Source: Streptomyces yatensis (GTDB lineage Bacteria; Actinomycetota; Actinomycetes; Streptomycetales; Streptomycetaceae). Taken from it: a stretch of DNA of 64,000 nt. Shown piece after piece: positions 29,763 to 49,441 of this stretch. The position numbers and the translations under genes were made by a program. Every line of letters begins with the position of its first letter. Position 1 is the first letter of the stretch. The notes below the pieces were generated by a model. It did not search any database. It had not been told where the DNA came from and worked only from the letters and a program-made list of their open reading frames with translations. The stretch is taken from positions 2,852,001 through 2,916,000 of the forward strand of contig NZ_CP072941.1 of NCBI RefSeq assembly GCF_018069625.1. Reading direction: 5' to 3'.

Positions 29763-30551
29763 GTGATCGGAAAGGACGCCACCGGAGATCGGTGGAGCAT
29801 CGGTGAGCTGGCGCGGGCGAGTGGAGTGACCGTGCGGACGCTGCGGCACTACGACGAGGTGGGGCTGGTGCGGGCCGGCGGGCGGACCGGGGCCGGGCAC
29901 CGTCGGTATACGGCGGAGGACCTGCGGCGGCTGTACCGGGTGCGGGCGTTGCGCGGGCTGGGGCTGTCCCTCCAGGAGATCGGCGACGCGCTCGCGGCCT
30001 CCGCGGACGGTCCTGAGGCACTGCGTGCGTCGCTCGCCGGGCAGTTGGACCGGCTCATCGCACAGGCCGAGCGGATCCAGCAGCTCAGCGAGCGGATCCG
30101 CGGGATGCTGCGGCAGCTCGACGGGGCGTCGATGCCCGATCCGGACCAGTTCATGACGGCCTTGGAGATGATGTCGATGCTGGACGGCTATTTCACCCGG
30201 GGACAACGCGATGGGCTCGCCCGGCGCAGGAGCACGCTTGGGCCCGAGGCGGTCGAGGCGGCCAAGAGCGAGTGGGCCGGGCTCGTGGAGGCGTTGCTGG
30301 GGCATATGGAGGCCGGGACTCCGGTGGATGACGCGGATGTACGGGAGCTTGTGCGGCGCTGGGACGCGGTGGGCGAGTCCTTCCACGGCGGCGGTGAGCG
30401 GGCCCGGGCGGAGACCAGGGCGGCGGCCCGGCGCATGTGGCAGGACCATCGCGAAGAGCTCAGCGCCCGGCTGCCCTGGCCCGGCGAGCGGATGGCCGAG
30501 TTGGTCGGTTATGTGGAGCAGGTGCGGAAGGCCCGTCGGGGAGGGAGCTAG
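29763..30551 (+). CDS. MerR-family regulator with TipAS-like effector domain
   Basis: This regulator has 262 residues. The MerR winged helix is at about 10-75 (WSIGELARASGVTVRTLRHY, RRYTAEDLRRLYRVRALRGL). A coiled-coil dimerisation helix follows (about 85-125). The C-terminal domain (about 140-250) resembles TipAS: MLDGYFTRGQRDGLARRR, LGPEAVEAAKSEWAGLVEAL and RMWQDHREELSA. TipA-type regulators bind bulky drugs and activate their own promoters by untwisting a 19-bp spacer, which is present here. Its TAG overlaps the convergent allantoicase TAG within the shared CTAG. Confidence 0.92.
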   Translation: MIGKDATGDRWSIGELARASGVTVRTLRHYDEVGLVRAGGRTGAGHRRYTAEDLRRLYRVRALRGLGLSLQEIGDALAASADGPEALRASLAGQLDRLIAQAERIQQLSERIRGMLRQLDGASMPDPDQFMTALEMMSMLDGYFTRGQRDGLARRRSTLGPEAVEAAKSEWAGLVEALLGHMEAGTPVDDADVRELVRRWDAVGESFHGGGERARAETRAAARRMWQDHREELSARLPWPGERMAELVGYVEQVRKARRGGS

Positions 30552-31690
30552 CTCAGCTCCGCATGGCGGGCCGCGAGGCGCCGCGCGCCGTGCTCGGTCA
30601 GGGTCCCGTGCAGCCGCAGCCGGGCGACGCCGCCGTCCGGGTAGATGTCGATCCGGACGTGGGTCACCGGCGGGGCGGCGTCGAGGACGAAGCGGTGGAC
30701 CGTATCGGGCTGGAGGCGGGTGCGGGGCAGGAGTTCGGTCCAGGCCGGGGAGGTGTGGTCGGCCGGGTCCGCGCCGGAGGTGGCGTCGAGGCCGTACAGC
30801 GCCGCCCAGCCCGGTGCGTTGCCCTTGTAGCAGCCGGTGTCGATCTCCACGGCGTGCGGCGACGCCTGGGCGGTGAGGCGGTAGCGGACCCAGTCGTGGC
30901 CCGTGTCGCGGCGGCGGCGGGTCTCCCAGCCCTCGTCCATCTTGTGGGAGCGGCCGGGCTGGATGGAGTTGGCGGGCGGGGAGTAGAAGCGGTCGGAGGC
31001 GTCCTCGGCCGCGCCGCCGTGCTCCAGCGCCACCACGTCGAAGGTGCCGAGGACGGTGAGCCACGCCGGGTCGGGGGCGACCTCGCCGTGGACGCGGAGG
31101 CGGGCGATGCCGCCGTCGGGGTGCTGCTTGAGGCGGAGGTGGGTGAAGCGGCGGCCCGGGGAGACGGGGAAGCCGTTGGCCGCGTGGCCGCCGATCCGCG
31201 TACGGGGGACGAGTTCGGTCCACACGACGTCGTCGGCGAGGAGTTCCTCGGGGGACGGGGTGCCGTCCACCGCCGTCGCCTCGATGCTCACCGCCCGCGG
31301 GTAGTTGCCGCGGAAGTGGGCGGTGTCGACGACGATGCCGTGGACGACCCCGGGGGCGCCGAGGCGGATCAGGGCCCAGTCGTGGTCGTCCTCGGCCGGA
31401 TGCGGGGTGTCGGCGCGGGCCCCGCGCCGCCGCCGGGTCTCCCACCCGTCCATGACCTTGCCCTTGTGGCCGAAGGCCGCGGGGTCGAAGTGCGGCGCCT
31501 CGGGCCTCAGCAGATTCTCGCGCTCGGCGAAGAACTCGTCGTTGGCCGCGACCACGCTTCCGCCGAGCCGCCGGTCGGCCAGGTCCACGAGATGGGTGAA
31601 GGGGAGGTCGGCGGTCCGGTAGTCGGCGTACGGATCGCCCCCGCCGTACGGGGCGGCGTCACCGGTGAAGCGGGGGATCGGCGCGGTCAT
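30548..31690 (-). CDS. alc: Allantoicase
   Basis: This hydrolyses allantoate to ureidoglycolate and urea, the step after allantoinase. The 380-residue protein has the duplicated beta-jelly-roll architecture of the family. Two similar halves each contain a [16 protein letters not shown] motif ([12 protein letters not shown] near residue 80 and [18 protein letters not shown] near 245) and an [16 protein letters not shown] motif. [23 protein letters not shown] near residue 40 is the N-terminal signature. Its ATG overlaps the allantoinase TGA by four bases, so the two are coupled and controlled from the allantoinase promoter. Confidence 0.96.
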
Positions 31691-33048
31691 CTGCGGGGCT
31701 GCCTTTCCAGGAGTCGGCCGGTGGGTTCGCCCGCCGCGCCGCGGTCGGCGATCGCGCCATGGTCGGCGATCTTCCGGCCGCGCAGCCAGGTGGACCGCAC
31801 GACGCCGTACAGCGTCCTGCCCGCGTAGGCGGTGACCTGGTTGCGGTGGTGGAGGGCGGCGGGGTCGACGGTGAAGGTCTCGTCGGGGGCGAGGACCGCG
31901 AAGTCGGCGTCGCGGCCGGCCTCGATGGCGCCCTTACGGTCGAGACCGACGAGCGCGGCGGGGCCGGTGGACATCCAGCGGGCCACGTCGTGGAGGGTGT
32001 GGCCGCGCCGGCGGGCCGCCGTCCAGACGGCGGGGAGGCCGAGCTGGAGCGAGGAGATGCCGCCCCAGGCCCGCCCGAAGTCGTCCACCTTGAGGTCGGC
32101 GGTACAGGGCGAGTGGTCGGAGACGACGCAGTCGATCTGTCCGGCCGCCAGGCCCGCCCACAGCGCGTCCTGGTTGGCGGCCTCCCTTATGGGCGGACAG
32201 CATTTGAACTCCGTGGCGCCGTCGGGGACTTCCTCGGCGGTGAGGGTCAGGAAGTGCGGGCAGGTCTCCACGGTGATCCGCACGCCCTCGCGCCGTGCGT
32301 CCGCGATCAGCGGCAGCGCGTCGGCGGACGACAGATGCAGGACGTGGACGCGGGCGTCGAGTGCGCGGGCGAGGGTGATGAGGCCCGCGATGGCCTCGTT
32401 CTCGGCGGCGCGGGGGCGTGAGGCCAGGAAGTCTGCGTAGCGGGGGCCGGTCGGCGGCGGAGCGCCGTCGATGAGGTGGGGGTCCTCGGCGTGGACGATG
32501 AGCAGTCCGCCGAAGCCCGCGATCTTCCGGAGGGCGGTTTCGAGCTGGTCGGGGGCGAGCTGGGGGAACTCGTCCACGCCGGAGGGGAGCAGGAACGCCT
32601 TGAAGCCGAGGACGCCCGCGTGGTGCAGCGGCTCCAGGTCCGGGGCGTTCCCGGGCACGGCGCCGCCCCAGAACCCGACGTCGACATGGGCCGACCGCCG
32701 GGCGACGGCCCGTTTGACCTCCAGGGCCTGGACGGTGGTGGTCGGCGGGATGCTGTTGAGCGGCATGTCGATGAGGGTGGTGACGCCGCCGGCCGCGGCG
32801 GCGCGGGTGGCGGAGCCGAACCCCTCCCAGGCGGTGCGGCCGGGGTCGTTGACATGGACGTGGGTATCGACGAGGCCGGGAAGCAGGACGTCGTCGCCGA
32901 GGTCCTCGACCCGCGCGCCGTCCGGGTCCGGGGCGTCGTACGGCCCGACGGCCACGATGCGGCCGTCGGCGACGGATACGGCGGCCGCGCGCAGGCCGTC
33001 CGGCGTGACCACCCTGGCCGAGCGCAGCACCAGCTCCACGTCGGGCAC
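31687..33048 (-). CDS. allB: Allantoinase
   Basis: This cyclic amidohydrolase opens allantoin to allantoate. Metal-centre residues are visible: [10 protein letters not shown] (two His), [10 protein letters not shown] (carboxylated Lys), [16 protein letters not shown] and VVSDHSPC (metal Asp). I chose the GTG six bases after GAGGAGG ([10 protein letters not shown]), giving 453 residues. An earlier GTG two codons upstream and one at 33075 are possible. It is the first gene of the allB-alc pair and divergent from an IclR regulator. The promoter region has two adjacent palindromes, including the 19-bp motif shared with the malate synthase and uricase operons. Confidence 0.96.
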
Positions 33049-33076: not shown

Positions 33077-33110
33077 GATTCCGCGACACGGAATCAACTT
33101 TTTGTTGAAT
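33077..33110 (-). promoter_or_regulatory. Two palindromic operators upstream of allB
   Basis: Site 1 (33077-33095), GATTCCGCGACACGGAATC, has 7-bp perfect arms and the look of an IclR-family operator. Site 2 (33092-33110) reads ATTCAACAAAAAGTTGATT on the minus strand. It matches sites upstream of aceB (35406) and the uraD operon (42427) as TTCAACA-N5-TTGA. The two sites overlap by four bases. A clear -10 for allB was not identified. Confidence 0.7.
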
Positions 33111-33342
33111 GATTGCCCCGGTGGACGGCCGGGTCAAGACCTCCCGGCCGGTGCTCCACACCCACCTCGCCCATGCTCCAACCCCGCCCGGCCGGTCCCG
33201 CACACCCGCTGTGACCGGCGCGGACGGTAGGCGCAAGCCCGCTGTGGGCGTCGCCGGGGACCGGTAGGCTTCCCGTGGCCGGTCGGCAGCGGATGGTCAC
33301 CGTGTGCGGGCCGGTGCCGACCGCTGTGAAAGGAACACCGAC

Positions 33343-34134
33343 GTGCCGTCCGCCGAGTCCAAGACCGCCGCCACCACCGCCGGATCCGGTGGCGTCCAGT
33401 CCCTGGAGCGCGCCTTCGATCTGCTGGAGCGGATGGCCGACGCCGGGGGCGAGGTCGGGCTGAGCGAGCTCTCCACCAGCAGCGGGCTGCCGCTGCCCAC
33501 CATTCACCGGCTGATGCGCACGCTGGTGGCCTGCGGCTATGTCCGTCAGCAGCCCAACCGCCGCTATGCCCTCGGGCCGCGGCTGATCCGGCTCGGCGAG
33601 AGCTCGGCCCGGCTGCTGGGCACCTGGGCGCGGCCGTATCTGGCGCGGCTGGTGGAGGAGACCGGCGAGACCGCGAACATGGCGCTGCTGGACGGCGATG
33701 AGGTGGTGTACGTGGCGCAGGTGCCCTCGCGCCACTCGATGCGGATGTTCACCGAGGTCGGGCGGCGGGTGCTGCCCCACACCACGGGCGTCGGCAAGGC
33801 ACTGCTGGCGAGCACGCCCCCCGAGGAGGTGCGCGCCCTGCTGGCCCGTACCGGCATGCCCGCGGTGACCGAGAAGACGATCACCTCGCCGGACGCGTTC
33901 CTCGACGCGCTGCGGCAGGTCCACGAGCAGGGCTATGCGGTGGACGACAACGAGCAGGAGATGGGCGTGCGCTGCCTCGCGGTCCCGGTGCCCGACTCCC
34001 CCGCACCGGCGGCCATCTCCATCTCGGGCCCGGCGGGCCGGGTGACGGACGAGGCCACGGAGCGGATGGTGCCGATCCTCAAGGAGGTCGCGGCCGAGCT
34101 GTCGGGGGCACTGGACAGCACGGGTTCCGCCTGA
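33343..34134 (+). CDS. allR: IclR-family regulator of allantoin catabolism (AllR-like)
   Basis: This is probably a repressor of the ureide and glyoxylate genes. It starts at a GTG 8 bases after GAAAGGA and has 263 residues. The winged HTH spans about 17-80 (SLERAFDLLERMADAGGEVG, LPLPTIHRLMRTLVACGYV). The IclR effector domain follows (about 95-260), with NMALLDGDEVVYVAQVPSRH, VLPHTTGVGKALLAS and AISISGPAGRVTDE. In S. coelicolor an IclR protein in the same position relative to allB (AllR) represses allantoin genes, with allantoate or glyoxylate-related effectors. The orthology call here rests on position and family. Confidence 0.9.
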   Translation: MPSAESKTAATTAGSGGVQSLERAFDLLERMADAGGEVGLSELSTSSGLPLPTIHRLMRTLVACGYVRQQPNRRYALGPRLIRLGESSARLLGTWARPYLARLVEETGETANMALLDGDEVVYVAQVPSRHSMRMFTEVGRRVLPHTTGVGKALLASTPPEEVRALLARTGMPAVTEKTITSPDAFLDALRQVHEQGYAVDDNEQEMGVRCLAVPVPDSPAPAAISISGPAGRVTDEATERMVPILKEVAAELSGALDSTGSA

Positions 34135-34178
34135 CGGCGGGCGACACCGGCGGCGGGCGCGGCACGGCGCCGCCCGGC

Positions 34179-34640
34179 TCAGTCTCTCCCTCTGCCCGTC
34201 TGCGGCACGTTGCTGAACTGGTCGATCGCCGCGCGCACGCCCGTCAGGGCGGAGCCCAGTGCGCTGACCGAGCCCAGCGCGCCCGCGATGAGCAGCAGCG
34301 AGCGGCGCAGGCGGTGCAGCTCCGGAGCGCCGGTGCGGGCCATGGCATCGAGCGCGGCCAGCTCGTCGTCCGCGATCGCCCGGTCCGGTAATTCGGCCGG
34401 GTGGGCCGCCAGATCACGTCTGAGTCGGGCCACGGCACGGCGCAGCTCGGCCGCCCTCGGATCGTCATCGGTGCCCGCCACTCGCCTGGCTTCCACGACT
34501 GCGGCGCCCTCCACTGACAAGGCACCGGGTTCGTCCCAGAGCCTCGCGCCATCGTTGGCCAACACTGCCCTTCTCCCCCTCGCGCCCTCTCGCACGAGCC
34601 TGCCCCCTTCCCGCATGGCCGCCCCAACCCTCCACCCCAC
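34179..34640 (-). CDS. Small conserved protein resembling DUF5955
   Basis: The protein is up to 153 residues; the start is uncertain. The conserved core begins near VAGTDDDPRAAELRRAVARL, so a GTG at 34481 (100 residues) is credible. An ATG at 34616 preceded by G-rich sequence is another option. The core has an Arg-rich amphipathic helix (LRRAVARLRRDLAAHPAEL) and a C-terminal hydrophobic helix (LRRSLLLIAGALGSVSALGS). This matches my memory of streptomycete DUF5955, which has no known function. It lies on the minus strand between allR and the nucleotidyltransferase gene. Confidence 0.65.
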   Translation of the reverse strand: MGWRVGAAMREGGRLVREGARGRRAVLANDGARLWDEPGALSVEGAAVVEARRVAGTDDDPRAAELRRAVARLRRDLAAHPAELPDRAIADDELAALDAMARTGAPELHRLRRSLLLIAGALGSVSALGSALTGVRAAIDQFSNVPQTGRGRD

Positions 34641-34770
34641 GTGGATTCGGACACAAGGGGCCGCGGATCAGTTAACGCCACTCAGTGCACGACGCGCTAT
34701 ACGGAGAGCGAAAATCAGACCGGCTGGGATGAAGCCCCCGCACGGCCCTCGGGTGCGGTAAGCAGGGCCC

Positions 34771-35379
34771 ATGGATCGCACAACGGAGGACTCCGCGCAG
34801 GTCGCCGGGATCGTGCTGGCGGCCGGGGGCGGCCGGCGGCTGGGCGGGCGCCCCAAGGCCCTTTTGACGCATCGGGGGCGGCCGCTGGTGGAGCACGCCG
34901 CGCGGGCGCTGCGCGAGGGCGGCTGCGCGCCCGTGCACATCGTGCTGGGCGCCGCGGCCGAGACCGTACGGGCACGGGCCCGGCTGCCCGGGTACGTCCT
35001 GGTCGACAACCCCGACTGGGAGCGGGGCATGGGCTCCTCGCTGCGCGCCGGGCTCGGCTCGCTGGCCGGTACGGGCGCGCGGGCGGCGCTGATCGCGCTG
35101 GTGGACCAGCCGGGGATCGGCGCCGAGGCGGTGGCCCGGGTGGTGGCCGCGTATCGCTCGCCGTCGACCCTGGCGGCCGCCGCGTACGGCGGGGAGCGGG
35201 GGCATCCGGTGCTGTTCGGCGCGGACCGGTGGGCGGATATCACGGCGAGTGCGGAGGGCGACCGGGGGGCACGCGCCTATCTGCGGGCGCATCAGTCCGC
35301 GATCACGCTCGTCGACTGCTCGGATATCGCCCGTACGGACGACATCGACACCCCCGAGGACTTGACGCTGCTCGAATGA
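34771..35379 (+). CDS. MobA/MocA-like nucleotidyltransferase
   Basis: This NTP transferase of 202 residues has the signature VAGIVLAAGGGRRLGGRPKA, the NPDWERGMGSSLRAGL block and the LVDQPGIGAEAV metal-binding Asp. The order is that of MocA, the molybdopterin cytidylyltransferase that makes MCD cofactor for xanthine-dehydrogenase-type enzymes. A xanthine dehydrogenase operon lies about 20 kb away in the same pathway. The link is supported by family but not proven: 2-phospholactate-type transferases are similar. It stands on the plus strand upstream of malate synthase. Confidence 0.82.
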   Translation: MDRTTEDSAQVAGIVLAAGGGRRLGGRPKALLTHRGRPLVEHAARALREGGCAPVHIVLGAAAETVRARARLPGYVLVDNPDWERGMGSSLRAGLGSLAGTGARAALIALVDQPGIGAEAVARVVAAYRSPSTLAAAAYGGERGHPVLFGADRWADITASAEGDRGARAYLRAHQSAITLVDCSDIARTDDIDTPEDLTLLE

Positions 35380-35405
35380 GACGGCGAGAGGGCAGCGGAC
35401 GCGGC

Positions 35406-35447
35406 GTTCAACAGAAGATTGAACTTCCACCATGAGAAACTTAGTAT
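35406..35447 (+). promoter_or_regulatory. aceB promoter with overlapping operator
   Basis: GTTCAACAGAAGATTGAAC (35406-35424) is a palindrome matching the shared 19-bp motif. Its right arm TTGAAC is also the -35, followed after 17 bp by TAGTAT (35442-35447), a near-ideal vegetative promoter. A bound repressor would block RNA polymerase. The leader is about 50 bases with AAGGAG before the ATG. Confidence 0.8.
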
Positions 35448-35505
35448 CCACAAGACAAAATCACTGCGAGCGTCCAGCTGAGACTCGTCCAAGGAGTGAC
35501 AGCCC

Positions 35506-37125
35506 ATGTCCGCACCAGCGCCGTCCCCGCTGGCCATCGTCGACGCCGAACCGCTGGAGCGTCAGGGGGAGGTGCTGACCGACGCGGCGCTGGCCTTCCT
35601 GGCCGAGCTCCACCACCGCTTCACCCCGCGCCGGGACGAGCTGCTCGCGCGCCGGGCGGAGCGCCGCGCCGAGATCGCCCGCACCAGCACGCTGGACTTC
35701 CTCCCGGAGACCGCCCCTGTCCGCGACGACCCCGACTGGCGCGTCGTCCCCGCCCCACCCGCCCTCGAGGACCGCCGGGTGGAGATCACCGGGCCCACCG
35801 ACCGCAAGATGACCATCAACGCGCTCAACTCGGGCGCCAAGGTCTGGCTCGCCGACTTCGAGGACGCCTCCGCCCCCACCTGGGCGAATGTGATCGGCGG
35901 TCAGCTCAATCTGATCGACGCCTATGAGCGCCGGATCGACTTCACCTCCCCCGAGGGCAAGAGCTACGCACTGCGGCCCGACGAGGTGCTGGCCACCGTC
36001 GTCACCCGGCCGCGCGGCTGGCATCTCGACGAGCGCCATCTGCGGGCCGCCGACGGCCGCCCCGTCCCCGGCGCCCTCGTCGACTTCGGGCTGTACTTCT
36101 TCCACAACGCCCGCCGGCTGCTCGACCGGGGCAAGGGGCCGTACTTCTACCTCCCCAAGACCGAGTCACATCTCGAGGCCCGCCTCTGGAATGACGTCTT
36201 CGTCTTCGCACAGGACCATCTCTCGCTTCCGCAAGGGACGATCCGCGCCACCGTTCTGATCGAGACCATCACGGCGGCGTACGAGATGGACGAGATCCTC
36301 TACGAGCTCCGCGACCACGCCTCCGGGCTCAACGCGGGCCGCTGGGACTATCTCTTCTCGATCGTCAAGAACTTCCGCGACGGCGGCCCCGGTTTCGTCC
36401 TCCCGGACCGCAACGCGGTCACGATGACCGCCCCGTTCATGCGCGCCTACACCGAACTGCTCGTCCGCACCTGCCACAAGCGCGGCGCGCACGCGATCGG
36501 CGGCATGGCGGCCTTCATCCCCTCGCGCCGCGACCCCGAGGTCAACGCGGTCGCGTTCGACAAGGTCAAGGCCGACAAGGACCGTGAGGCGAACGACGGC
36601 TTCGACGGCTCCTGGGTCGCCCATCCGGATCTGGTCCCGGTCGCCCGGGCCTCCTTCGACGCGGTCCTCGGCGACCGGCCGCACCAGAAGGACCGGCTGC
36701 GCGAGGACGTCCGGGTCACCGCGGCCGAGCTGATCGACGTCGCGTCGCTCGACGCCAAGCCCACGCATCAGGGCCTGCGCAACGCCGTTCAGGTCGGCAC
36801 CCGCTATATCGAGGCGTGGCTGCGCGGCCTCGGCGCCGTCGCGATCTTCAACCTGATGGAGGACGCGGCCACCGCCGAGATCTCCCGCTCCCAGATCTGG
36901 CAGTGGGTCAACGCGGGGGTGGTCTTCGAGAACGGCGAGAAGGCCACCGCCGATCTTGTCCGTAAGGTCGCCGCCGAGGAGCTGGCGGCGATCCGCGAGG
37001 AGGTCGGCGAGGACGCCTTCGCCGCGGGCAAGTGGAGCCAGGCGCACGATCTGCTGCTGAGGGTGGCGCTGGACGCGGACTACACGGAGTTCCTGACGCT
37101 GCCCGCGTACGAACTGCTGGGCTGA
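35506..37125 (+). CDS. aceB: Malate synthase A
   Basis: This condenses glyoxylate with acetyl-CoA to malate and so consumes the glyoxylate released by ureide breakdown. The 539 residues match the A form: [20 protein letters not shown] near residue 100, [12 protein letters not shown] with the catalytic Arg, [55 protein letters not shown] and the [17 protein letters not shown]sp region. No isocitrate lyase is nearby. The shared operator at its promoter supports a purine-degradation role. A strong bidirectional terminator follows. Confidence 0.97.
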
Positions 37126-37148
37126 GCCGGTCCGTTCGGACGGCAAGG

Positions 37149-37178
37149 GCCCCGGACCGTACGGATACGGTCCGGGGC
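37149..37178. terminator. Bidirectional terminator between aceB and the GH29 gene
   Basis: GCCCCGGACCGTA and TACGGTCCGGGGC form a perfect 13-bp stem with a 4-nt loop (CGGA) between two convergent genes. It begins 23 bases after the aceB stop and ends 11 bases before the GH29 stop. Confidence 0.85.
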
Positions 37179-37189
37179 TCCTGTCGTCC

Positions 37190-39040
37190 CTACGGCGTGT
37201 AGAGCTGGGAGCGCGGCACGATCTGCTGGGGCACGCTGGGGCTGGACCACAGCAGCTTCATATGCGCCTCACCGGTCTGCTCGGTGTACTCGATCTTGAT
37301 GGCGTGTTGGGCTCCGGCGCGCAGCGCGACGGTCGCCTTGTCGACCTGTGGTTCATGCGGGGTGGTGTTGTCGATGACCAGACGGCCGTCGATCCACACC
37401 CGCGCGGTGTCGTCGGAGACGGTCGTGAGCGTGTAGGTCTCGCTGTGGCGGGGCTGGAGGAAGCCGGTCCAGCGGACGCCGAAGTGGTCGGCGGGGACGT
37501 CGGCGGCCGGGGAGCCGGCAAACCTCCAGCTGTGGTTGACGGCCGGGTCGGTGCGGGTGACGGCCGGCGGCCCGGTGAAGGTCTCATTGGCGAAGACCTC
37601 CTCGCGCAGCCCCTTGCCCCGGCCCTGGGGCGCGGCCGGGGCCGGTTTCACCGTCAGCTCGATCACCGAGGCGGTGGGGTCGGCCGGGCCGGCGGAGGGG
37701 GTGAGGTCGAAGCCGTCCCCCGCCTTCGCCACCTCGATGCGCTGTCCGCTGCCCAGCACCCGGGCGCCGGTCACCGTGAACGGCGCCCTGGCGGTGAGGT
37801 GGAGGGGCTGCCCCGCGGCGGGCCAGGAGGTGACGGACGCGTACAGCCGGTCGCCCGACCGGCTGACGGCACCCCAGGACGGCTCGTCGACCAGCCCGGT
37901 GGCCCCGGCCCCGTACACCGCGCGGCCCTGGCCGGAGGTCCGCAGCCAGGAGCCGATCGCACGGAGCCGGTCGACGGAGGGCTGGGGAACGCGGCCCAGT
38001 TTGTCGGGGCCGACATTGAGGAGGTAATTGCCGCCGCGGCTCGCGATATCGAGGAGATTGCGGGTGAGGGTGGCGGGCGACTTCCAGTCCTGGTCGTATC
38101 TGGCAAAGCCCCAGTGGCCGTTGAGGGTCATACAGCTCTCCCACAGCTGCCCGGCCACCGGCGCGTCCGGGATTTCCTGCTCGGGCGTTCCGTAGTCGCC
38201 GTCGACCACGCGCCGCTTGCCGACCCGGTTGTTGGTGATCAGATCGGGGTCGAGTCCGTGGAGATAGGACTGGAGCCGCTCACCGTCCTGGGCGGACCAG
38301 CGGTTGGTGGGGTTGTCCGCGTCCCATTCCCCGTCGAACCAGAGCAGCGCCGGATGGTAGTTGTCGACCAGCTCCTTGAGCTGGGCATACATCCGCTTCT
38401 CATAGCGGGGGAAGGTGGCGGGGTCGGCGAAGTCGGGGTCGTGCCAGTCCCAGATCGAGTAGTAGAAGCCGAGTTTGATCCCGGCGGCGTCCGCGGCGGA
38501 CTTCAATTCGGCCAGGATGTCGCGCCGTTGGTCGAAGGAGGAGTGGTCGCGCAGATTCCAGGTGTTCTGCTCGGTCGGCCACATCGCATAGCCGTCGTGG
38601 TGCTTGGAGGTGATGACGATATAGCGCTGCCCGGCGTCCTTGGCCGCCTTGACGACGGCCTTGGCGTCGAAGGAGGCGGGGTTGAAGTCCTGGGCGGCGT
38701 CCTCGTACTCGTTCATCGGGATCTGGCAGTTTCGCTTGATCCACTCCGCGTCGCGGCAGACGGTCCCGTCCGCCCGCCGGTATTCGCCCTCCAGCTGGGA
38801 GTAGGCGCCGAAGTGGATGAACATCCCGAAGCGGTCCTGCCGCCACCAGCCGGTGCGGTCGGCGGTGAACGGATCGTCGGTCGCGTAGTCGGTACCGGGC
38901 CCGGGCTCCCGCGCCGCCGTCGGCGCCGCAGGCACCGCGGTGGCGGCGGAAGGGCCGCTGAGGATCGTCGCCAGCACCATGCCGAGCAGAAGGCTGAGCG
39001 CTCGGAGAGGGATGACGGCCCGTCGTCTGGACGTGCGCAT
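37190..39040 (-). CDS. Secreted GH29 alpha-L-fucosidase with PA14 domain
   Basis: This is an exported glycosidase that removes fucose from glycans. It has 616 residues from the ATG after AGGAG (MRTSRRRAV); an ATG six codons upstream is less likely. The signal peptide is about 1-35. The GH29 catalytic domain (about 45-350) shows WWRQDRFGMFIHFGAYSQ, ITSKHHDGYAMWPT, FYYSIWDWHDPDF and the nucleophile Asp in LLWFDGEWD. A beta-sandwich follows, then a C-terminal PA14 domain (about 475-610), with HFGVRWTGFLQPRHSETYTL and ARVWIDGRLVIDN, likely a glycan-binding module. Confidence 0.93.
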   Translation of the reverse strand: MRTSRRRAVIPLRALSLLLGMVLATILSGPSAATAVPAAPTAAREPGPGTDYATDDPFTADRTGWWRQDRFGMFIHFGAYSQLEGEYRRADGTVCRDAEWIKRNCQIPMNEYEDAAQDFNPASFDAKAVVKAAKDAGQRYIVITSKHHDGYAMWPTEQNTWNLRDHSSFDQRRDILAELKSAADAAGIKLGFYYSIWDWHDPDFADPATFPRYEKRMYAQLKELVDNYHPALLWFDGEWDADNPTNRWSAQDGERLQSYLHGLDPDLITNNRVGKRRVVDGDYGTPEQEIPDAPVAGQLWESCMTLNGHWGFARYDQDWKSPATLTRNLLDIASRGGNYLLNVGPDKLGRVPQPSVDRLRAIGSWLRTSGQGRAVYGAGATGLVDEPSWGAVSRSGDRLYASVTSWPAAGQPLHLTARAPFTVTGARVLGSGQRIEVAKAGDGFDLTPSAGPADPTASVIELTVKPAPAAPQGRGKGLREEVFANETFTGPPAVTRTDPAVNHSWRFAGSPAADVPADHFGVRWTGFLQPRHSETYTLTTVSDDTARVWIDGRLVIDNTTPHEPQVDKATVALRAGAQHAIKIEYTEQTGEAHMKLLWSSPSVPQQIVPRSQLYTP

Positions 39041-39157
39041 GGCGGCTCCTGTGCTCATGGGTGGTCGAACAGGAGGGCTGGCCAGCCGCGTACGGGAACC
39101 TAGAACCGTAAAGATGGGATGTCAACGGGGCCCGAACGCACCGATGGGCCGCCGGTG

Positions 39158-39173
39158 ACTGCCATAAGGCAGT
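39158..39173. terminator. Small hairpin after the amidohydrolase gene
   Basis: ACTGCC-ATAA-GGCAGT is a perfect 6-bp stem with a 4-nt loop, about 36 bases past the end of the uricase operon. It is a modest candidate terminator. Confidence 0.4.
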
Positions 39174-39209
39174 TACCTCAGCGACCCATCCGATGAATCG
39201 ACGCGTCGT

Positions 39210-40580
39210 TCAGTCGTCCGCGGCGATACGGGCCAGGCGTCGCGCCTCGGTGCGCGCCTCCCGCGCGATCTCGTCCTCGTCCACGGTGAGCAGCCGGCCC
39301 GACTCCACCACCGGAGCGCCGTTCACCAGCGACAGGGTCACCGGGGCCGGGGCGCCCAGGACGAGGGCGGCGACCGGGTCGGCGATCGACGAATGGCCGA
39401 GGCCGTCCAGCTTCCACAGCACCAGGTCGGCCAGTTTGCCCGGCTCCAGCGAGCCGATCTCGTCCTGGCGGCCCAGCACCCGCGCACCGCCGTAGGTGCC
39501 GAGGCGCAGCGCCTGGCGGACGTTCAGCGCCTTCTCACGGTGGCCGCCGAGCCGGTTGACCAGCAGCGCGTTGCGCAGTTCGGTGTGGAGCTCGCCGGAT
39601 TCGTTGGAGGCGGTGCCGTCCACGCCCAGGCCCACCGGTACGTCCGCGGCGAGCAGATCGGGGACCCGGGCGATCCCGGCGGCGAGCCGGGCGTTGGACG
39701 AGGGGCAGTGGGCCACCCCGGTGCCGGTCCGGGCGAACGCCTGGATGTCGGTGTCGCTCATGTGGACGCAGTGGGCCATCCACACGTCCTCGCCCAGCCA
39801 GCCGGTGGACTCGAAGTAGTCGGTCGGCCCCATCCCGAACCGCTCCTGGCAGAACTTCTCCTCCTCCACCGTCTCCGAGCCGTGGGTGTGCAGCCGTACG
39901 CCCTTGCGGCGGGCCAGCACCGCGGACTCGCGGAGCAGTTCGGTGGAGACGGAGAACGGCGAGCAGGGCGCGACCGCGATCCGCAGCATGGCGTCGAACC
40001 CCGGGTCGTGGTGGGTGTCGATGGCCTCCTCGGTGGCGGCCAGCGCGTCCTCGGCGGACTCCACGGCGAAGTCCGGCGGCAGCCCGCCGTCGGAGGCGCC
40101 GAGGTCCATGGAGCCGCGGGCGGCGGTGAACCGCACACCCAGCTCGCGCGCCGCGCGGATCTCGGCGCCCAGCAGATCGCCGCTGCCGCGCGGAAAGACG
40201 TAGTGGTGGTCCATGGCGGTGGTGACCCCGCCCCGCACCATCATCGCGAGCGAGCCGCGGGCCGCCGCGTGGACCATCGGCTCGTCGATCCGCGCCCAGA
40301 CGGGGTAGAGCGCGACCAGCCAGTCGAAGAGGTTGCTGTCCTGGGCCAGGCCGCGGGTGAGCCACTGGTAGAAGTGGTGATGGGTGTTGACCAGGCCCGG
40401 GGTCACCAGGTGTCCCGTGCCGTCGATCCGGCGGACGACACCCTCCAGCCCCTGCGGCGCGCGCCCCTCGCCCACCGACTCGATGCGGTGGCCGGCGACG
40501 ACGACATGGCCGGACGCGTACTCGGTGTCCTGCGCGTCCACGGTGGCGAGGGCGCAGTTCTCGATGACGATGCGGTGCAC
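39210..40580 (-). CDS. 8-oxoguanine-deaminase-type amidohydrolase
   Basis: This zinc or iron amidohydrolase of about 456 residues is last in the uricase operon. Metal-site motifs are NTHHHFYQW (two His), LHTHGSETVEEEK, WMAHCVHMS and GLGVDGTASNESG (metal Asp). The family (AtzB/TrzN/8-oxoguanine deaminase subgroup) converts 8-oxoguanine to urate, which would feed directly into uricase and fits the operon. Guanine deaminase or an s-triazine-type hydrolase is the alternative. I chose the GTG of VHRIVIENC, 9 bases after GGAAGGG; an ATG ten codons upstream is possible. Confidence 0.88.
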   Translation of the reverse strand: MHRIVIENCALATVDAQDTEYASGHVVVAGHRIESVGEGRAPQGLEGVVRRIDGTGHLVTPGLVNTHHHFYQWLTRGLAQDSNLFDWLVALYPVWARIDEPMVHAAARGSLAMMVRGGVTTAMDHHYVFPRGSGDLLGAEIRAARELGVRFTAARGSMDLGASDGGLPPDFAVESAEDALAATEEAIDTHHDPGFDAMLRIAVAPCSPFSVSTELLRESAVLARRKGVRLHTHGSETVEEEKFCQERFGMGPTDYFESTGWLGEDVWMAHCVHMSDTDIQAFARTGTGVAHCPSSNARLAAGIARVPDLLAADVPVGLGVDGTASNESGELHTELRNALLVNRLGGHREKALNVRQALRLGTYGGARVLGRQDEIGSLEPGKLADLVLWKLDGLGHSSIADPVAALVLGAPAPVTLSLVNGAPVVESGRLLTVDEDEIAREARTEARRLARIAADD

Positions 40581-40640
40581 GGGGCGTGGCCCTTCCGTCG
40601 GCTGAGTCAAGGGGGATCCGGTCGGTCGGCGGGGAGCCGT

Positions 40641-41522
40641 TCAGTCGGTGGGGATCCGGGGCTCGGCGCCGTCCCGCAGCACGGTGGCCTCGATGAGCCC
40701 GTACGGCCGGTCGGCGGCGAAGTAGACCTCGTTGTCGTTGGTGAGGCCGAAGGGTTCCAGATCGACCAGGAAGTGGTGCTTGTTGGGCAGTGAGAGACGT
40801 ATCTCGTCCACCTCCGGGCGGCGCTCGATCACCCGCGCGCCCATCTCGTAGAGCGTCTGCTGGAGCGAGAGGGAGTAGGTCTCGGCGAACGCGCTCAGCA
40901 GCTGGCCGCGCGCCTCCTCGTGGCCGTGGTCCCAGTCCGGCATCGGCCGGGTGTCATCGCTCCAGCCGTAGCGCCAGCGGGCGTGCACATCGGTGGCCAG
41001 GACGCGGTCGCGGGTCTCCGGCAGCGTGGTGTACCGGTCCTTGACATAGCCCCAGAACTCGGAGTCCGTGGTGTTCAGGACGGTGAGGCCGGTGAGCCCG
41101 GAGACCACCTCCCAGCGCTCGCCGTCGTAGGCGATCTGGGCGGTGCGGACCTCCTGGCCGCGGCGGACGAAGGAGTGCCGGGCGCTCCCGGCCGTCTCGA
41201 TCCGGTCCCAGGCGTACTCCTCGATACGGATGCGGGCGCGGTGGATGGGCTGCTGGCTGGTGACGAAGTGGCGGGCCAGCCGGATGCCGAACTCCTCGGC
41301 CGTGTCGATGCCGTGCTCCTTGGCGAAGGCGTACACGGTGTTCTTGGTGGCGTCGGTCGTCAGGACGTTGGCGTTGCTGCCGGAGAGGTGGACCTCGTCC
41401 ATCTCTCCGGACAGCGCCACCGAGACATTGAGGTCCTTGAGGTGGTGCACGGCGCCGTCGCGCACCACCCGCACGACGCGGGTCTCGGCTTTGCCGTAAC
41501 TGTTCGGGCCGAGCGTGGGCAT
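40641..41522 (-). CDS. uox: Uricase (urate oxidase)
   Basis: This cofactor-free enzyme oxidises urate to 5-hydroxyisourate. From the ATG of MPTLGPNSYGKAE it has 293 residues. It shows the T-fold tandem and the Lys-Thr catalytic region TTDATKNTVYAFAKEHG, the HHFLVDLEPFG motif and SLPNKHHF. The gene begins 5 bp after the HIU hydrolase stop. Peroxide produced here is a known burden of this step; no catalase is adjacent. Confidence 0.97.
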   Translation of the reverse strand: MPTLGPNSYGKAETRVVRVVRDGAVHHLKDLNVSVALSGEMDEVHLSGSNANVLTTDATKNTVYAFAKEHGIDTAEEFGIRLARHFVTSQQPIHRARIRIEEYAWDRIETAGSARHSFVRRGQEVRTAQIAYDGERWEVVSGLTGLTVLNTTDSEFWGYVKDRYTTLPETRDRVLATDVHARWRYGWSDDTRPMPDWDHGHEEARGQLLSAFAETYSLSLQQTLYEMGARVIERRPEVDEIRLSLPNKHHFLVDLEPFGLTNDNEVYFAADRPYGLIEATVLRDGAEPRIPTD

Positions 41523-41527
41523 GGGTG

Positions 41528-41869
41528 CTAGCTCCCTCGGTAGACGGAGTAGCCGAACGGGGTGAGCAGCAGCGGTACGTGGTAGTGCTCGCCCGGCTCG
41601 ACGGCGAAGGCGACCGCGACCTCCGGGAAGAAGGCGTGGGTCAGATACGGCCCGGTCTCGAAGCGCAGCCGTGCGTGGGTGGTGCCCTCGGGGAGGTCGG
41701 GCAGGTCCTTGCAGCGCCCGTCGGCGTCGGTCAGGGAGTCGGCGTGCGCCGTCCACCGCGCGCCGGGCCCCGAGCGGACGGACAGCTCGACGACCACGCC
41801 CACGGCGGGGCGGCCGATGCTGGTGTCCAGGATGTGGGTGGACACGGAGGTGGCGCCGCCGGCCATCAC
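41528..41869 (-). CDS. uraH: 5-Hydroxyisourate hydrolase (transthyretin-like)
   Basis: This hydrolyses 5-hydroxyisourate to OHCU. The 113 residues show the family landmarks: N-terminal VSTHILDTSIGRPA (catalytic His), TDADGRCKDL, YLTHAFFPEV, HYHVPLLLTPFGYSVY and the C-terminal YRGS tetrapeptide. Its start overlaps the OHCU decarboxylase stop by four bases. Confidence 0.97.
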   Translation of the reverse strand: MMAGGATSVSTHILDTSIGRPAVGVVVELSVRSGPGARWTAHADSLTDADGRCKDLPDLPEGTTHARLRFETGPYLTHAFFPEVAVAFAVEPGEHYHVPLLLTPFGYSVYRGS

Positions 41870-42396
41870 CGCTCTCCTTCCGCCGGGGCCCGCGGGGCCT
41901 GGGGGGTTTCCGTCAGCCGGGTCAGCCGGATGCGGTTGATCTTTCCCAGTTCGGTGCGGACGATCTCGCGCTCGGTGTCGGCGTCATGGTGGATCCGCTC
42001 GCGCAGCGCCGCCAGCATCTCCTCGCCGGTGCGGCCGGTGGCGCAGATCAGGAAGACATGGCCGTGGCGCTCCTGGTACGCGAGGTTCAGCTCCAGCAGC
42101 TCGGCGCGCTCCGCGTCCCGTACCCCGCGCTGCTCGCGGGCCGAGGCGGCGTCGCCCGGCGCCGGCCGCCCGATGGGCGGATGCGCGGCCATCGCCTCGG
42201 CGAGGTCGGCGGCGGTCAGCCCGGCCATGGCCGCGTCGGCGGCGTCGAGCAGCTCCCCGACCGTGGCGTACGGCCGCCCGCCGGCGACCGCCGCGGCCCA
42301 GGCCCGGCTGGCGCACACCTCGTGCAGCAGCCCGGCGGCGTCGCGGTCGTCCACCGCGTTGAACCGGGCCAGCCCCGGCGGTGCACTGGAAGTCAC
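41866..42396 (-). CDS. uraD: OHCU decarboxylase
   Basis: This converts OHCU to S-allantoin. The 176-residue, all-helical protein has the catalytic His in AMAAHPPIGRPAP and the conserved LNLAYQERHGHVFLICATGR block. It is the first gene of the operon, starting with GTG six bases after a TAGCTT -10 element, so its message is probably leaderless. The promoter overlaps the shared TTCAACA operator. The C-terminal tail is Pro/Ala-rich. Confidence 0.96.
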   Translation of the reverse strand: MTSSAPPGLARFNAVDDRDAAGLLHEVCASRAWAAAVAGGRPYATVGELLDAADAAMAGLTAADLAEAMAAHPPIGRPAPGDAASAREQRGVRDAERAELLELNLAYQERHGHVFLICATGRTGEEMLAALRERIHHDADTEREIVRTELGKINRIRLTRLTETPQAPRAPAEGER

Positions 42397-42402
42397 TCTC
42401 GC

Positions 42403-42445
42403 AAGCTAGGAGGCACCCTCGCCGGGCGTCAACACTTTGTTGAAA
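42403..42445 (-). promoter_or_regulatory. uraD operon promoter with overlapping operator
   Basis: On the minus strand TTTCAACAAAGTGTTGACG (42445-42427) matches the shared motif. Its TTGACG serves as -35, followed by an 18-bp spacer and TAGCTT (42408-42403). The arrangement copies that of aceB: operator right arm equals -35. Confidence 0.8.
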
Positions 42446-42469: not shown

Positions 42470-42841
42470 TCAGTCCCCGCTCTTCTCACGGTTGAGGTAG
42501 TTGTAGACGGTGAAGCGGCTCACGCCGAGGGCTCCGGCGACCGTCTCGACGCCGTGGCGCACCGAGAAGGCGCCGCGCTGTTCGAGCTGGCGGACGACGG
42601 ACTGCTTGGTCTTGCGGTCGAGGGCCGAGAGCGGCACGCCGTGGCGGCGCTGCAGGTCGGCGAGGATGTGGTCGAGCGAGTCCGAGATATGCGGCAGCCT
42701 CACGGCGATCACCGGGCGGCCCTCCCAGGAGAGCACCACGTCGTCGCCCCGGGCCCGGTCCGGGGCGATCATCTCGCCGCCCATGGCGTCCACGAGCGGC
42801 CGCACCGCGGCGGCGAAGGGGTGGTCGGCCGGTACGCTCAC
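42470..42841 (-). CDS. Short helix-turn-helix regulator (HTH_22/YheO-like)
   Basis: This 123-residue protein lies immediately upstream of the uricase operon on the same strand. The C-terminal third is a clear HTH (KQSVVRQLEQRGAFSVRHGV, then ALGVSRFTVYNYLN) of the YheO/DauR type. The N-terminal part keeps the DDVVLSWEGRPVIAV and HISDSLDHI elements seen at the end of the sensory domain in longer relatives (about 200-240 residues), so this is a trimmed form. It starts with GTG overlapping the stop of the preceding small gene (GTGA). A role in purine-gene control is inferred from position. Confidence 0.82.
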   Translation of the reverse strand: MSVPADHPFAAAVRPLVDAMGGEMIAPDRARGDDVVLSWEGRPVIAVRLPHISDSLDHILADLQRRHGVPLSALDRKTKQSVVRQLEQRGAFSVRHGVETVAGALGVSRFTVYNYLNREKSGD

Positions 42842-43089
42842 GCCTCACCCTCCCCGATCACGTTGACCTGGAGCGAAATCCGGGTGGCACCGGCTTCGAG
42901 GGAGCCGCGCAGCAGCCGGTCGACGGCCGCCAGCACCGCTTCCGCCCCGCCTTCCGCGGTGTTGCCGAAAGGGCCGACGTCGACCGCGTCCAGCGGGGCG
43001 GCCTGGACGGTCTCGCGGGCCACGACGGCGTGCGGCGGCACCTCGTCGAGGTCGAACGGTTCGGTGGTGAACTCAACCCTCAATCTCAC
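42838..43089 (-). CDS. Small thiamine-binding-fold protein (MTH1187/YkoF-like)
   Basis: This 83-residue protein contains the LDAVDVGPFGNTAEGGAEAV pattern and a terminal GATRISLQVNV strand of the PF01910-type thiamine-binding family. It is shorter than the usual 100 residues. It is co-transcribed with the HTH gene (4-base overlap). The link between thiamine and purine degradation is not obvious. Function is inferred from fold only. Confidence 0.65.
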   Translation of the reverse strand: MRLRVEFTTEPFDLDEVPPHAVVARETVQAAPLDAVDVGPFGNTAEGGAEAVLAAVDRLLRGSLEAGATRISLQVNVIGEGEA

Positions 43090-48526: not shown

Positions 48527-49441
48527 GTGACGGGATCGGACGGGGCCGTCGACATACGGAACACGCTGCAGCGGATGCGCCGGCGCGGTGGGCTGCCCGT
48601 CGCGTTCGGCGGGCTGTTCTCGGGGTCACGGCAGTTCCGGATCTCGGAACTCACCGGCACCACGACCAACTCCCTGCGGGGTCTGGCCATCACACCCGGC
48701 AACGGTCTCGGCGGCAAGGTCCTCACCATGTCCCGGCCGATCTCGGTGGTGGACTACCCCGCCTCACGGGCGATCAGCCATGAGTACGACGCGGCCGTGG
48801 GGGCGGAGGGGCTGCGCTCGATGCTCGCGGTGCCGGTGGTGGTGCGCGGGCGGGTGCGCGGGGTGCTGTACGGCGCGCTGCGCCAGCCGCTGCTGCTCGG
48901 CGACCGGGCGCTGACCGCGGCCGTGGAGTCGGCGCGCGAACTGGAACGCGTGCTGGAGAGCGAGCTGGCGCAGGAGCTGGCGGTACGGGAGGAGGCGCAG
49001 CGGCTGCTGACCGAGGCGCGTCAGCGGCGGGGGCAGCCGCCGGGACCGCAGTGGGAGCCGTCGGCGGAGGAGACCGATCCGGCGGTGTGGGAGGAGGTGC
49101 GCGAGGCCCACGGCGATCTGCGGGCCCTGGCGCACCGGGTGCCCGACCCCCAGCTGCGCGAGGAGATACTCACCGCCTGCTCCCGGCTGGCCAGGGCCTC
49201 GTCGGGGCGCGGCCGGCAGCGCGAGCACCGGAACGGGGGGACCGGGGTGGAGCTGTCGCCGCGCGAGGTGGATGTGCTGGCGTGTGTGGCCTCGGGGGCG
49301 ACGAATTCGACGGCGGCCGAGCGGCTGGGGTTGCGGCCGGAGACGGTCAAGAGCTATCTGCGCTCGTCCATGCGGAAGTTGGGGGCCCATACCCGTCTCC
49401 ACGCGGTGGTCGAGGCCCGCCGTGCGGGGCTCTTGCCGTAG
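48527..49441 (+). CDS. GAF-LuxR family transcriptional regulator
   Basis: This regulator has 304 residues from the GTG 5 bases after GGGAGG; an ATG five codons earlier lacks a ribosome site. A GAF-like N-terminal domain (about 10-140, with RQFRISELTGTTTNSLRGL, LGGKVLTMSRPISVVDY and AVPVVVRGRVRGVLYGAL) is followed by a helical linker (about 145-225) and a C-terminal LuxR HTH (LSPREVDVLACVASGATNST, AERLGLRPETVKSYLRSSMR). This architecture is frequent beside acyl-CoA ligase or dehydrogenase genes in actinobacteria, so it probably controls the two ligases. Confidence 0.9.
   Translation: MTGSDGAVDIRNTLQRMRRRGGLPVAFGGLFSGSRQFRISELTGTTTNSLRGLAITPGNGLGGKVLTMSRPISVVDYPASRAISHEYDAAVGAEGLRSMLAVPVVVRGRVRGVLYGALRQPLLLGDRALTAAVESARELERVLESELAQELAVREEAQRLLTEARQRRGQPPGPQWEPSAEETDPAVWEEVREAHGDLRALAHRVPDPQLREEILTACSRLARASSGRGRQREHRNGGTGVELSPREVDVLACVASGATNSTAAERLGLRPETVKSYLRSSMRKLGAHTRLHAVVEARRAGLLP

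Follow-up and report, generated by a model that had tools for sequence, protein, structure and literature searches.

The allantoin genes of Streptomyces coelicolor are reportedly controlled by AllR with allantoate and glyoxylate as effectors, a result ascribed to Navone et al. in 2015. According to PMC5487221, HucR of Deinococcus as well as PecS and MftR are urate-responsive MarR proteins, and HucR leaves the DNA upon urate binding. PMC4991794 describes an effect of SenS-SenR on hpxQ-hpxT-hpxO (SCO6209-6211) in S. coelicolor, and regulators of the YheO/Cj1387c type are characterized in PMC4519771 by a PAS_6 domain plus a helix-turn-helix. The locus considered here lies in a 64,000-nucleotide stretch of the Streptomyces yatensis genome (contig NZ_CP072941.1, positions 2,852,001 to 2,916,000; referred to as the window), which carries the genes for allantoinase (allB) and malate synthase (aceB) and the operon of uraD, HIU hydrolase and uricase. 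A palindrome shared by these three, the TTCAAC box, is conserved in Streptomyces, overlaps the promoters of aceB and uraD, and is associated across genomes with the presence of a small HTH_22 protein encoded next to uraD. We infer, as the likely explanation, that this protein reads the TTCAAC boxes, that AllR reads a second palindrome, the TTCC box, and that allB and aceB are under both, with binding, repression and ligand all part of this inference.

The initial annotation had noted three sites of 19 base pairs (bp) with the common pattern TTCAACA-N5-TTGA, and an exact-pattern search of the window recovered all of them with the same coordinates and strands (Table 1). The exact pattern is present at these three places, and a fourth row in the search result is the uraD site on the other strand with one mismatch. 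Dinucleotide shuffles of the window yielded a mean of 0.04 rows, and none of 100 reached four. In the whole genome of 10.36 Mb, the exact pattern is again found three times, always at these sites, and its reversed control once. If one mismatch is allowed, 26 forward and 26 reverse rows are obtained compared to 20 and 20 for the control. Because these counts are near those of the reversed control, most one-mismatch sites in the genome are regarded as background. Screening 27 of these loci (L004-L030) gave a list near background, in which most sites could not be placed by a crude open reading frame test. In full, the palindrome spans 17 bp, TTCAAC-N5-GTTGAA, and each of the three copies in the window deviates from it by one mismatch. 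The promoter geometry had also been described correctly, with TTGAAC-17 bp-TAGTAT at aceB and TTGACG-18 bp-TAGCTT at uraD. At uraD, six bases separate the end of the -10 element from the chosen GTG start (window positions 42396-42408), and since this distance is so short, the uraD message may be leaderless.

The conservation of the box was assessed in related genomes (G-numbers, with G000 being the window's own) and in individual loci (L-numbers, with L126 being the window's own uraD). Genome-wide counts refer to the exact pattern, with palindromes counted on both strands and the reversed pattern as control, and box scores give the matches to the 12 arm positions for the best site upstream of a gene. 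Across 101 Streptomyces genomes, 443 exact hits were found compared to 67 for the control, and 99 genomes contain at least one. Among 80 named loci chosen via their AllR, the box upstream of allB scores at least 11/12 in 78 (L031 onwards). A score of at least 10/12 is reached upstream of aceB in 57 of 68 loci, compared to 1 of 68 for shuffled sequences, and 11/12 upstream of uraD in all 34 loci, the window's own included. A second locus count resulted in 76/78 for allB, 56/67 for aceB, 29/29 for uraD and 5/5 for catalase, with none at hyi (0/10 and 0/6, two sets that overlap in some genomes) or gcl (0/5). The promoters of the HTH_22 gene, allantoicase (alc), the NTP transferase (ntp) and the deaminase (gdeam), used as controls, contain no site above 8/12, and the regions upstream of uricase (uox) none above 9/12. 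These results support the view that the three sites form one operator class linking the urate, allantoin and glyoxylate steps, and that it is a control element common to the genus. In most relatives, the aceB promoter has a further conserved palindrome, GAGAATCTC, just 5' of the TTCAAC box, which is not found in the window's copy.

The initial annotation had attributed the sites to a single repressor, with AllR as the prime candidate and the HTH_22 protein encoded at 42470 as the alternative. While the single operator class is retained, the better description is a pair of regulators whose operators adjoin each other at allB and aceB, and the HTH_22 protein takes the place of AllR as the best-supported candidate reader of the TTCAAC box, since the motif is strongly associated with its presence, with G405 and G468 as exceptions and slow decay of the box at uraD. 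AllR relatives were sampled at an E-value of 1e-60 and HTH_22 orthologs at 1e-20 across 114 genera. AllR was found in 35 genera and HTH_22 only in the window's own, where it is present in 375 of 393 genomes. A pattern search in 95 HTH_22-positive genomes returned 429 hits compared to 62 for the control, with at least two in 94 genomes and none without a hit, and the 18 HTH_22-negative Streptomyces genomes gave 11 compared to 20. No enrichment was detected in the 14 genomes that are AllR-positive and HTH_22-negative (10 hits vs 17 for the control), three of which have at least two hits. The resulting comparison of 94/95 with 3/14 is highly significant (Fisher 1.1e-11), although this value is uncorrected for kinship and counts palindromes on both strands. 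Among 20 AllR loci read from other genera, out of 70 such genomes with AllR, no site of at least 11/12 and a single one of 10/12 were found.

At aceB, none of 10 HTH_22-negative genomes has a TTCAAC box of at least 10/12, compared to 56 of 67 named loci (Fisher 3.2e-7), and the TTCC box is retained at 9/10 in 8 of these 10 genomes, that of G247 at another place. In the seven of the 10 that could be anchored, 0-3 of the 6 positions of the left arm and 4-6 of the 6 positions of the -35 arm are left, and in 62 named loci the left arm is complete in 51 and the right arm in 56. Single genomes provide natural experiments. In G257, allB adjoins the NTP transferase gene in a locus without allR, and no AllR match was found at 1e-50 with all 63 candidates scored. 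This genome has an HTH_22 protein at 69% identity and keeps a perfect TTCAAC box at allB (12/12) and one of 11/12 at uraD, and at allB its TTCC box has dropped to 8/10. The opposite situation is seen in G010, where allR, allB, aceB and uraD are present and AllR is intact, and where HTH_22 is split into two pieces in different frames. Here, neither allB nor aceB has a TTCAAC box, and the TTCC box at aceB scores 9/10. G658 has the pathway, HTH_22 was not found in it, and its aceB carries only the TTCC box.

The TTCC box was identified by a dyad search with the TTCAAC motif masked, which detected TTC-N9-GAA upstream of allR, allB and aceB. The same dyad tops the list for the AllR loci of other genera, where it lies upstream of allR in 7 of 20 (0.3 expected), and the underlying sequences fit TTCCR-N5-YGGAA. 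It is similar to the motifs of Escherichia coli AllR and IclR as tabulated in PMC8222616. Scores of at least 9/10 were obtained at allB (77/78), aceB (60/67), hyi (10/10 and 6/6), gcl (5/5) and catalase (4/5), compared to only 1/29 at uraD. At allB in the window, the two boxes overlap by 4 bp, and the aceB copy is a remnant one base shorter that directly follows the TTCAAC box. Among loci that have both boxes at aceB, 51 show the TTCC box beginning one base after its TTCAAC neighbour; at allB it is directly adjacent in 20 loci, with a position further upstream in others. The window contains two exact TTCC-type sites, and 3.28 are expected at one mismatch. Because such sites are not rare by chance in the window, the standing of the allB TTCC box is based on its conservation. 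The second exact site, TTCCGGATCTCGGAA at 48635-48649, is within a number that corresponds to the chance expectation.

The HTH_22 protein consists of 123 amino acids, and its only Pfam match is HTH_22 at residues 56-117 (75.2 bits, cut-off 29.6). YheO is akin to HTH_22, and the Pfam search revealed no PAS domain in the window protein, which thus lacks the PAS_6 and HTH_22 combination of the YheO/DauR type. Its C-terminal helix-turn-helix is invariant among the orthologs compared. A small alpha/beta N-terminal part is predicted in the structure models, the best of which has a pLDDT of 85.9 and a pTM of 0.62 (pLDDT range of the five models 54.5-85.9). A sequence search of the PDB gave nothing better than an E-value of 0.3. 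The start of the gene overlaps an 83-amino-acid open reading frame with a weak Thiamine_BP match, which is also located beside the HTH_22 gene in relatives and whose product may be a partner or a ligand-binding subunit. AllR belongs to the IclR family (IclR_C 149.4 bits, HTH_IclR 66.3 bits; cut-offs 24 and 22), and its gene is divergent from allB in the allantoin locus, as in the Streptomyces AllR arrangement. Its best NCBIfam match is BhcR with 208 bits, under the cut-off of 350, and its nearest named matches are from S. hygroscopicus and relatives.

A model can be proposed in which the HTH_22 protein bound at TTCAAC-N5-GTTGAA blocks RNA polymerase at uraD and aceB. At uraD, aceB and catalase, the -35 element forms the right arm of the box, so that a bound protein should exclude the polymerase, which suggests repression. 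Release would be caused by an early-pathway inducer, and because the HTH_22 gene adjoins uraD, urate or an early product close to it is the natural candidate. AllR would read TTCCR-N5-YGGAA, abutting the TTCAAC box at allB and aceB and standing alone at hyi and gcl in relatives. The operon of uraD, HIU hydrolase and uricase would then be under HTH_22 alone, and hyi and gcl under AllR alone. Allantoinase and malate synthase would be under both regulators, forming an AND gate for release. If this is true, these two enzymes would be released only with both an early and a late intermediate present. HTH_22 as a lone regulator had also been considered, and is incomplete because hyi and gcl carry the TTCC box alone.

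Several observations weigh against the assignment of the TTCAAC box to HTH_22. Part of the association is target loss, as HTH_22-negative genomes are often without pathway genes, and the 80 named loci were selected by their AllR, not singly by HTH_22. At aceB, genomes without HTH_22 also have a weakened -35 arm, though the loss is smaller than in the left arm. Two fragmented assemblies in which no HTH_22 was found keep high-scoring boxes, namely G405 (950 contigs; 12/12 at allB) and G468 (140 contigs; 11/12 at uraD), and the allB site of G247 still scores 10/12 as a palindrome of altered sequence. The uraD boxes of the HTH_22-negative genomes G010, G468 and G658 score 10, 11 and 10 of 12, which is partly because the -35 element falls within the box. 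Conversely, single boxes are missing in HTH_22-positive relatives, at allB in L032 and L035, both from near relatives of the window's species, and at aceB in L033, L035 and G037. Both canonical boxes are absent from aceB in G257 and from allB in G658. In addition, HTH_22 is also found where no ligand pocket was recognized. In a tree of 53 AllR proteins, HTH_22-negative rows appear by eye in several places; since many forks are open, the bootstrap is unsettled and the group count compares these rows with the outgroup alone, no number of HTH_22 losses is claimed.

A reading of the TTCAAC box by AllR itself, possibly in addition to the TTCC box, is unlikely. The position of the box between the divergent allR and allB genes, its retention at allB in nearly all loci that were chosen by their AllR, and the control that AllR is said to exert on the S. 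coelicolor allantoin genes would fit this explanation. However, the boxes persist in G257 in the absence of AllR, no enrichment exists in the 14 AllR-positive genomes without HTH_22 despite a recognition helix that is unchanged in all 10 compared, and the palindrome seen at the AllR loci of other genera is a different one, with no TTCAAC site of 11/12 there (0/20). Moreover, the distribution expected of an AllR operator is that of the TTCC box. For these reasons, a model with AllR as the single regulator was set aside as the first choice.

A third, unlinked regulator, for example of the MarR or GntR type, that was lost by chance along with HTH_22 is quite unlikely. G010 and G658 retain uraD, allB and aceB, and with HTH_22 broken or not found their boxes decay; furthermore, HTH_22 is the gene that adjoins the best-conserved box. 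Such a regulator would nevertheless be in line with related perfect palindromes upstream of genes with no obvious place in the pathway, such as those of the Cyclophil_like/cydA region. TamR is one protein that was considered for this role. The possibility that the box is a promoter feature of the -35 region and not an operator can be considered very improbable. It would account for the right arm, which coincides with the -35 element at uraD, aceB and kat and survives best where HTH_22 is gone, but neither for the left arm, which is situated outside the promoter and shows equal conservation where HTH_22 is present, nor for the allB box, which has no -35/-10 arrangement. The dyad symmetry, retained across many spacer sequences, also contradicts it.

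Further candidate targets were collected as interesting-looking sites and are not a random sample, and gene names outside the window were mostly assigned by eye, with profiles run on examples. One such site in the genome of the window itself is TTAAACAATCTGTTGAT at G000:C1:8789777 (L265:3278), which scores 10/12 and lies upstream of a gene for xanthine permease (TIGR03173, 567 bits, cut-off 414); the relative G096 (L269) carries this site at 11/12. When five further stretches of the window's genome were inspected, the site at 8789777 alone looked meaningful. In relatives, the box is found upstream of catalase, upstream of urease genes (L123, L271, L275, L288), and immediately in front of a DUF6986 gene that neighbours etf genes (L273, L281, L283, L291, L294). 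The DUF6986 product has a weak HpcH/HpaI aldolase match, and the box hints that it acts in purine or glyoxylate metabolism. TTCAAC palindromes that are perfect or nearly so also occur in the cydA-hisC interval beside a Cyclophil_like gene in 12 loci (L117-L121, L124, L162, L163, L270, L290, L292, L293), and possibly another regulator is behind them. Among 18 site regions read, seven were not tied to a pathway gene (L279, L280, L282, L285, L287, L289, L295), and L284 was tied to the pathway by its neighbour genes only. By eye, the L289 site lies upstream of a moaA-like gene, and a perfect palindrome, TTCAACATATTGTTGAA at L285:2518, lies upstream of a gene for an adenylate-forming enzyme, which is a misfit for a purine regulon. 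Taken as a whole, the chances are about even that the HTH_22 protein, which has no PAS domain, responds to urate and represses a purine regulon that extends across Streptomyces and comprises xanthine permease, uricase, catalase, allantoinase, urease and malate synthase, with allB and aceB shared with AllR. Catalase as a member would deal with the peroxide made by uricase.

The other features of the locus are listed in Table 1. A gene for a large secreted-looking protein (37190-39058), presumably fuc with its alpha-L-fucosidase-like sequence, is located between aceB and the deaminase gene and takes the same place in L035 and L278. A search of the window's own genome found no glyoxylate carboligase above the cut-off; the best TIGR01504 match has 373 bits compared to a cut-off of 711 (L111, G000:C1:3535466). 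By eye, this candidate looks like ilvB, beside ilvN and ilvC, and was rejected, so that the enzyme is probably missing from this genome. In relatives, gcl adjoins the uricase operon.

Table 1. Coordinates of genes and regulatory elements of the locus within the window.
Feature	Position	Strand	Basis
Allantoicase	30548..31690	-	PF03561
allB, allantoinase, chosen start GTG at 33048	31687..33048	-	TIGR03178, 604 bits
TTCC box of allB, perfect palindrome GATTCCGTGTCGCGGAATC, 15-bp core 33079-33093; candidate AllR operator	33077..33095	-	conservation
TTCAAC box of allB, ATTCAACAAAAAGTTGATT	33092..33110	-	pattern search; kept at allB in 78/80 loci
AllR, IclR family, proposed reader of the TTCC box	33343..34134	+	profiles
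MobA-like NTP transferase gene, upstream of the aceB promoter	34771..35379	+	profile search
TTCAAC box of aceB, GTTCAACAGAAGATTGAAC; right arm is the -35 element TTGAAC (35419-35424)	35406..35424	+	pattern search, conservation
Degenerate TTCC box of aceB, TTCCACCATGAGAAA; most relatives TTCCACNATGAGGAAA	35425..35439	+	relatives compared
-10 element TAGTAT of aceB	35442..35447	+	conserved as TA[CG]TAT
aceB, malate synthase	35506..37125	+	PF01274, PF20659, PF20656
8-oxoguanine deaminase, downstream of uricase, same strand	39210..40610	-	NF006055, 664 bits, cut-off 532
Uricase	40641..41522	-	PF01014
HIU hydrolase	41528..41869	-	PF00576
uraD, OHCU decarboxylase	41866..42396	-	PF09349
-10 element TAGCTT of uraD	42403..42408	-	TTAGCT/TAGCTT in relatives compared
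TTCAAC box of uraD operon, TTTCAACAAAGTGTTGACG; right arm is the -35 element TTGACG (42432-42427)	42427..42445	-	34/34 loci
HTH_22 (PF13309) protein, 123 amino acids, proposed reader of the TTCAAC box	42470..42841	-	profile and association
Open reading frame of 83 amino acids, overlapping the HTH_22 start	42838..43089	-	weak Thiamine_BP match, 17.3 bits, below curated cut-off 24.9

Regulons in which a repressor governs purine catabolism are already known, and what is new is the type of protein and the two adjoining operators. In the open-licence literature, no report of an HTH_22 regulator of uricase was found, which is weak evidence because subscription papers were mostly outside this scope. 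For Streptomyces, the control of uricase would gain a candidate regulator from a seldom-studied family, where elsewhere HucR-type MarR proteins control such an operon, and if a small protein with a single helix-turn-helix domain does sense urate, it would be a possible compact urate sensor. The two-box reading predicts which half of the purine pathway answers which signal, and it provides function hints for catalase, urease and the DUF6986 gene, which carry the TTCAAC box in relatives. It also calls for caution, as proximity is no basis for assigning motifs in an allantoin locus to AllR.

Compared to the S. coelicolor AllR regulon, the same pathway, the genes allR, allB and aceB, and an IclR-type repressor recur in the window, whereas two operator classes are told apart here and the uricase operon has the TTCAAC box only. 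With E. coli AllR and IclR (motifs in PMC8222616), the window shares the IclR family and an A/T-rich palindrome with GGAA/TTCC arms like those of the TTCC box, but its AllR remains far below the cut-off of the E. coli AllR equivalog NF007548 (122.1 vs 406 bits). SenS-SenR, according to PMC4991794, acts on the same operon of OHCU decarboxylase, HIU hydrolase and urate oxidase; it is a redox two-component system whose response regulator has other predicted sites. The YheO/Cj1387c type (PMC4519771) also has a C-terminal helix-turn-helix domain, and the 123-amino-acid protein differs from it in containing HTH_22 only, with a small alpha/beta N-terminal part predicted in place of PAS. Closest in role to the HTH_22 protein is HucR, a regulator beside uricase according to PMC5487221, although HucR belongs to the MarR family and the window protein has HTH_22 without a MarR match in Pfam.

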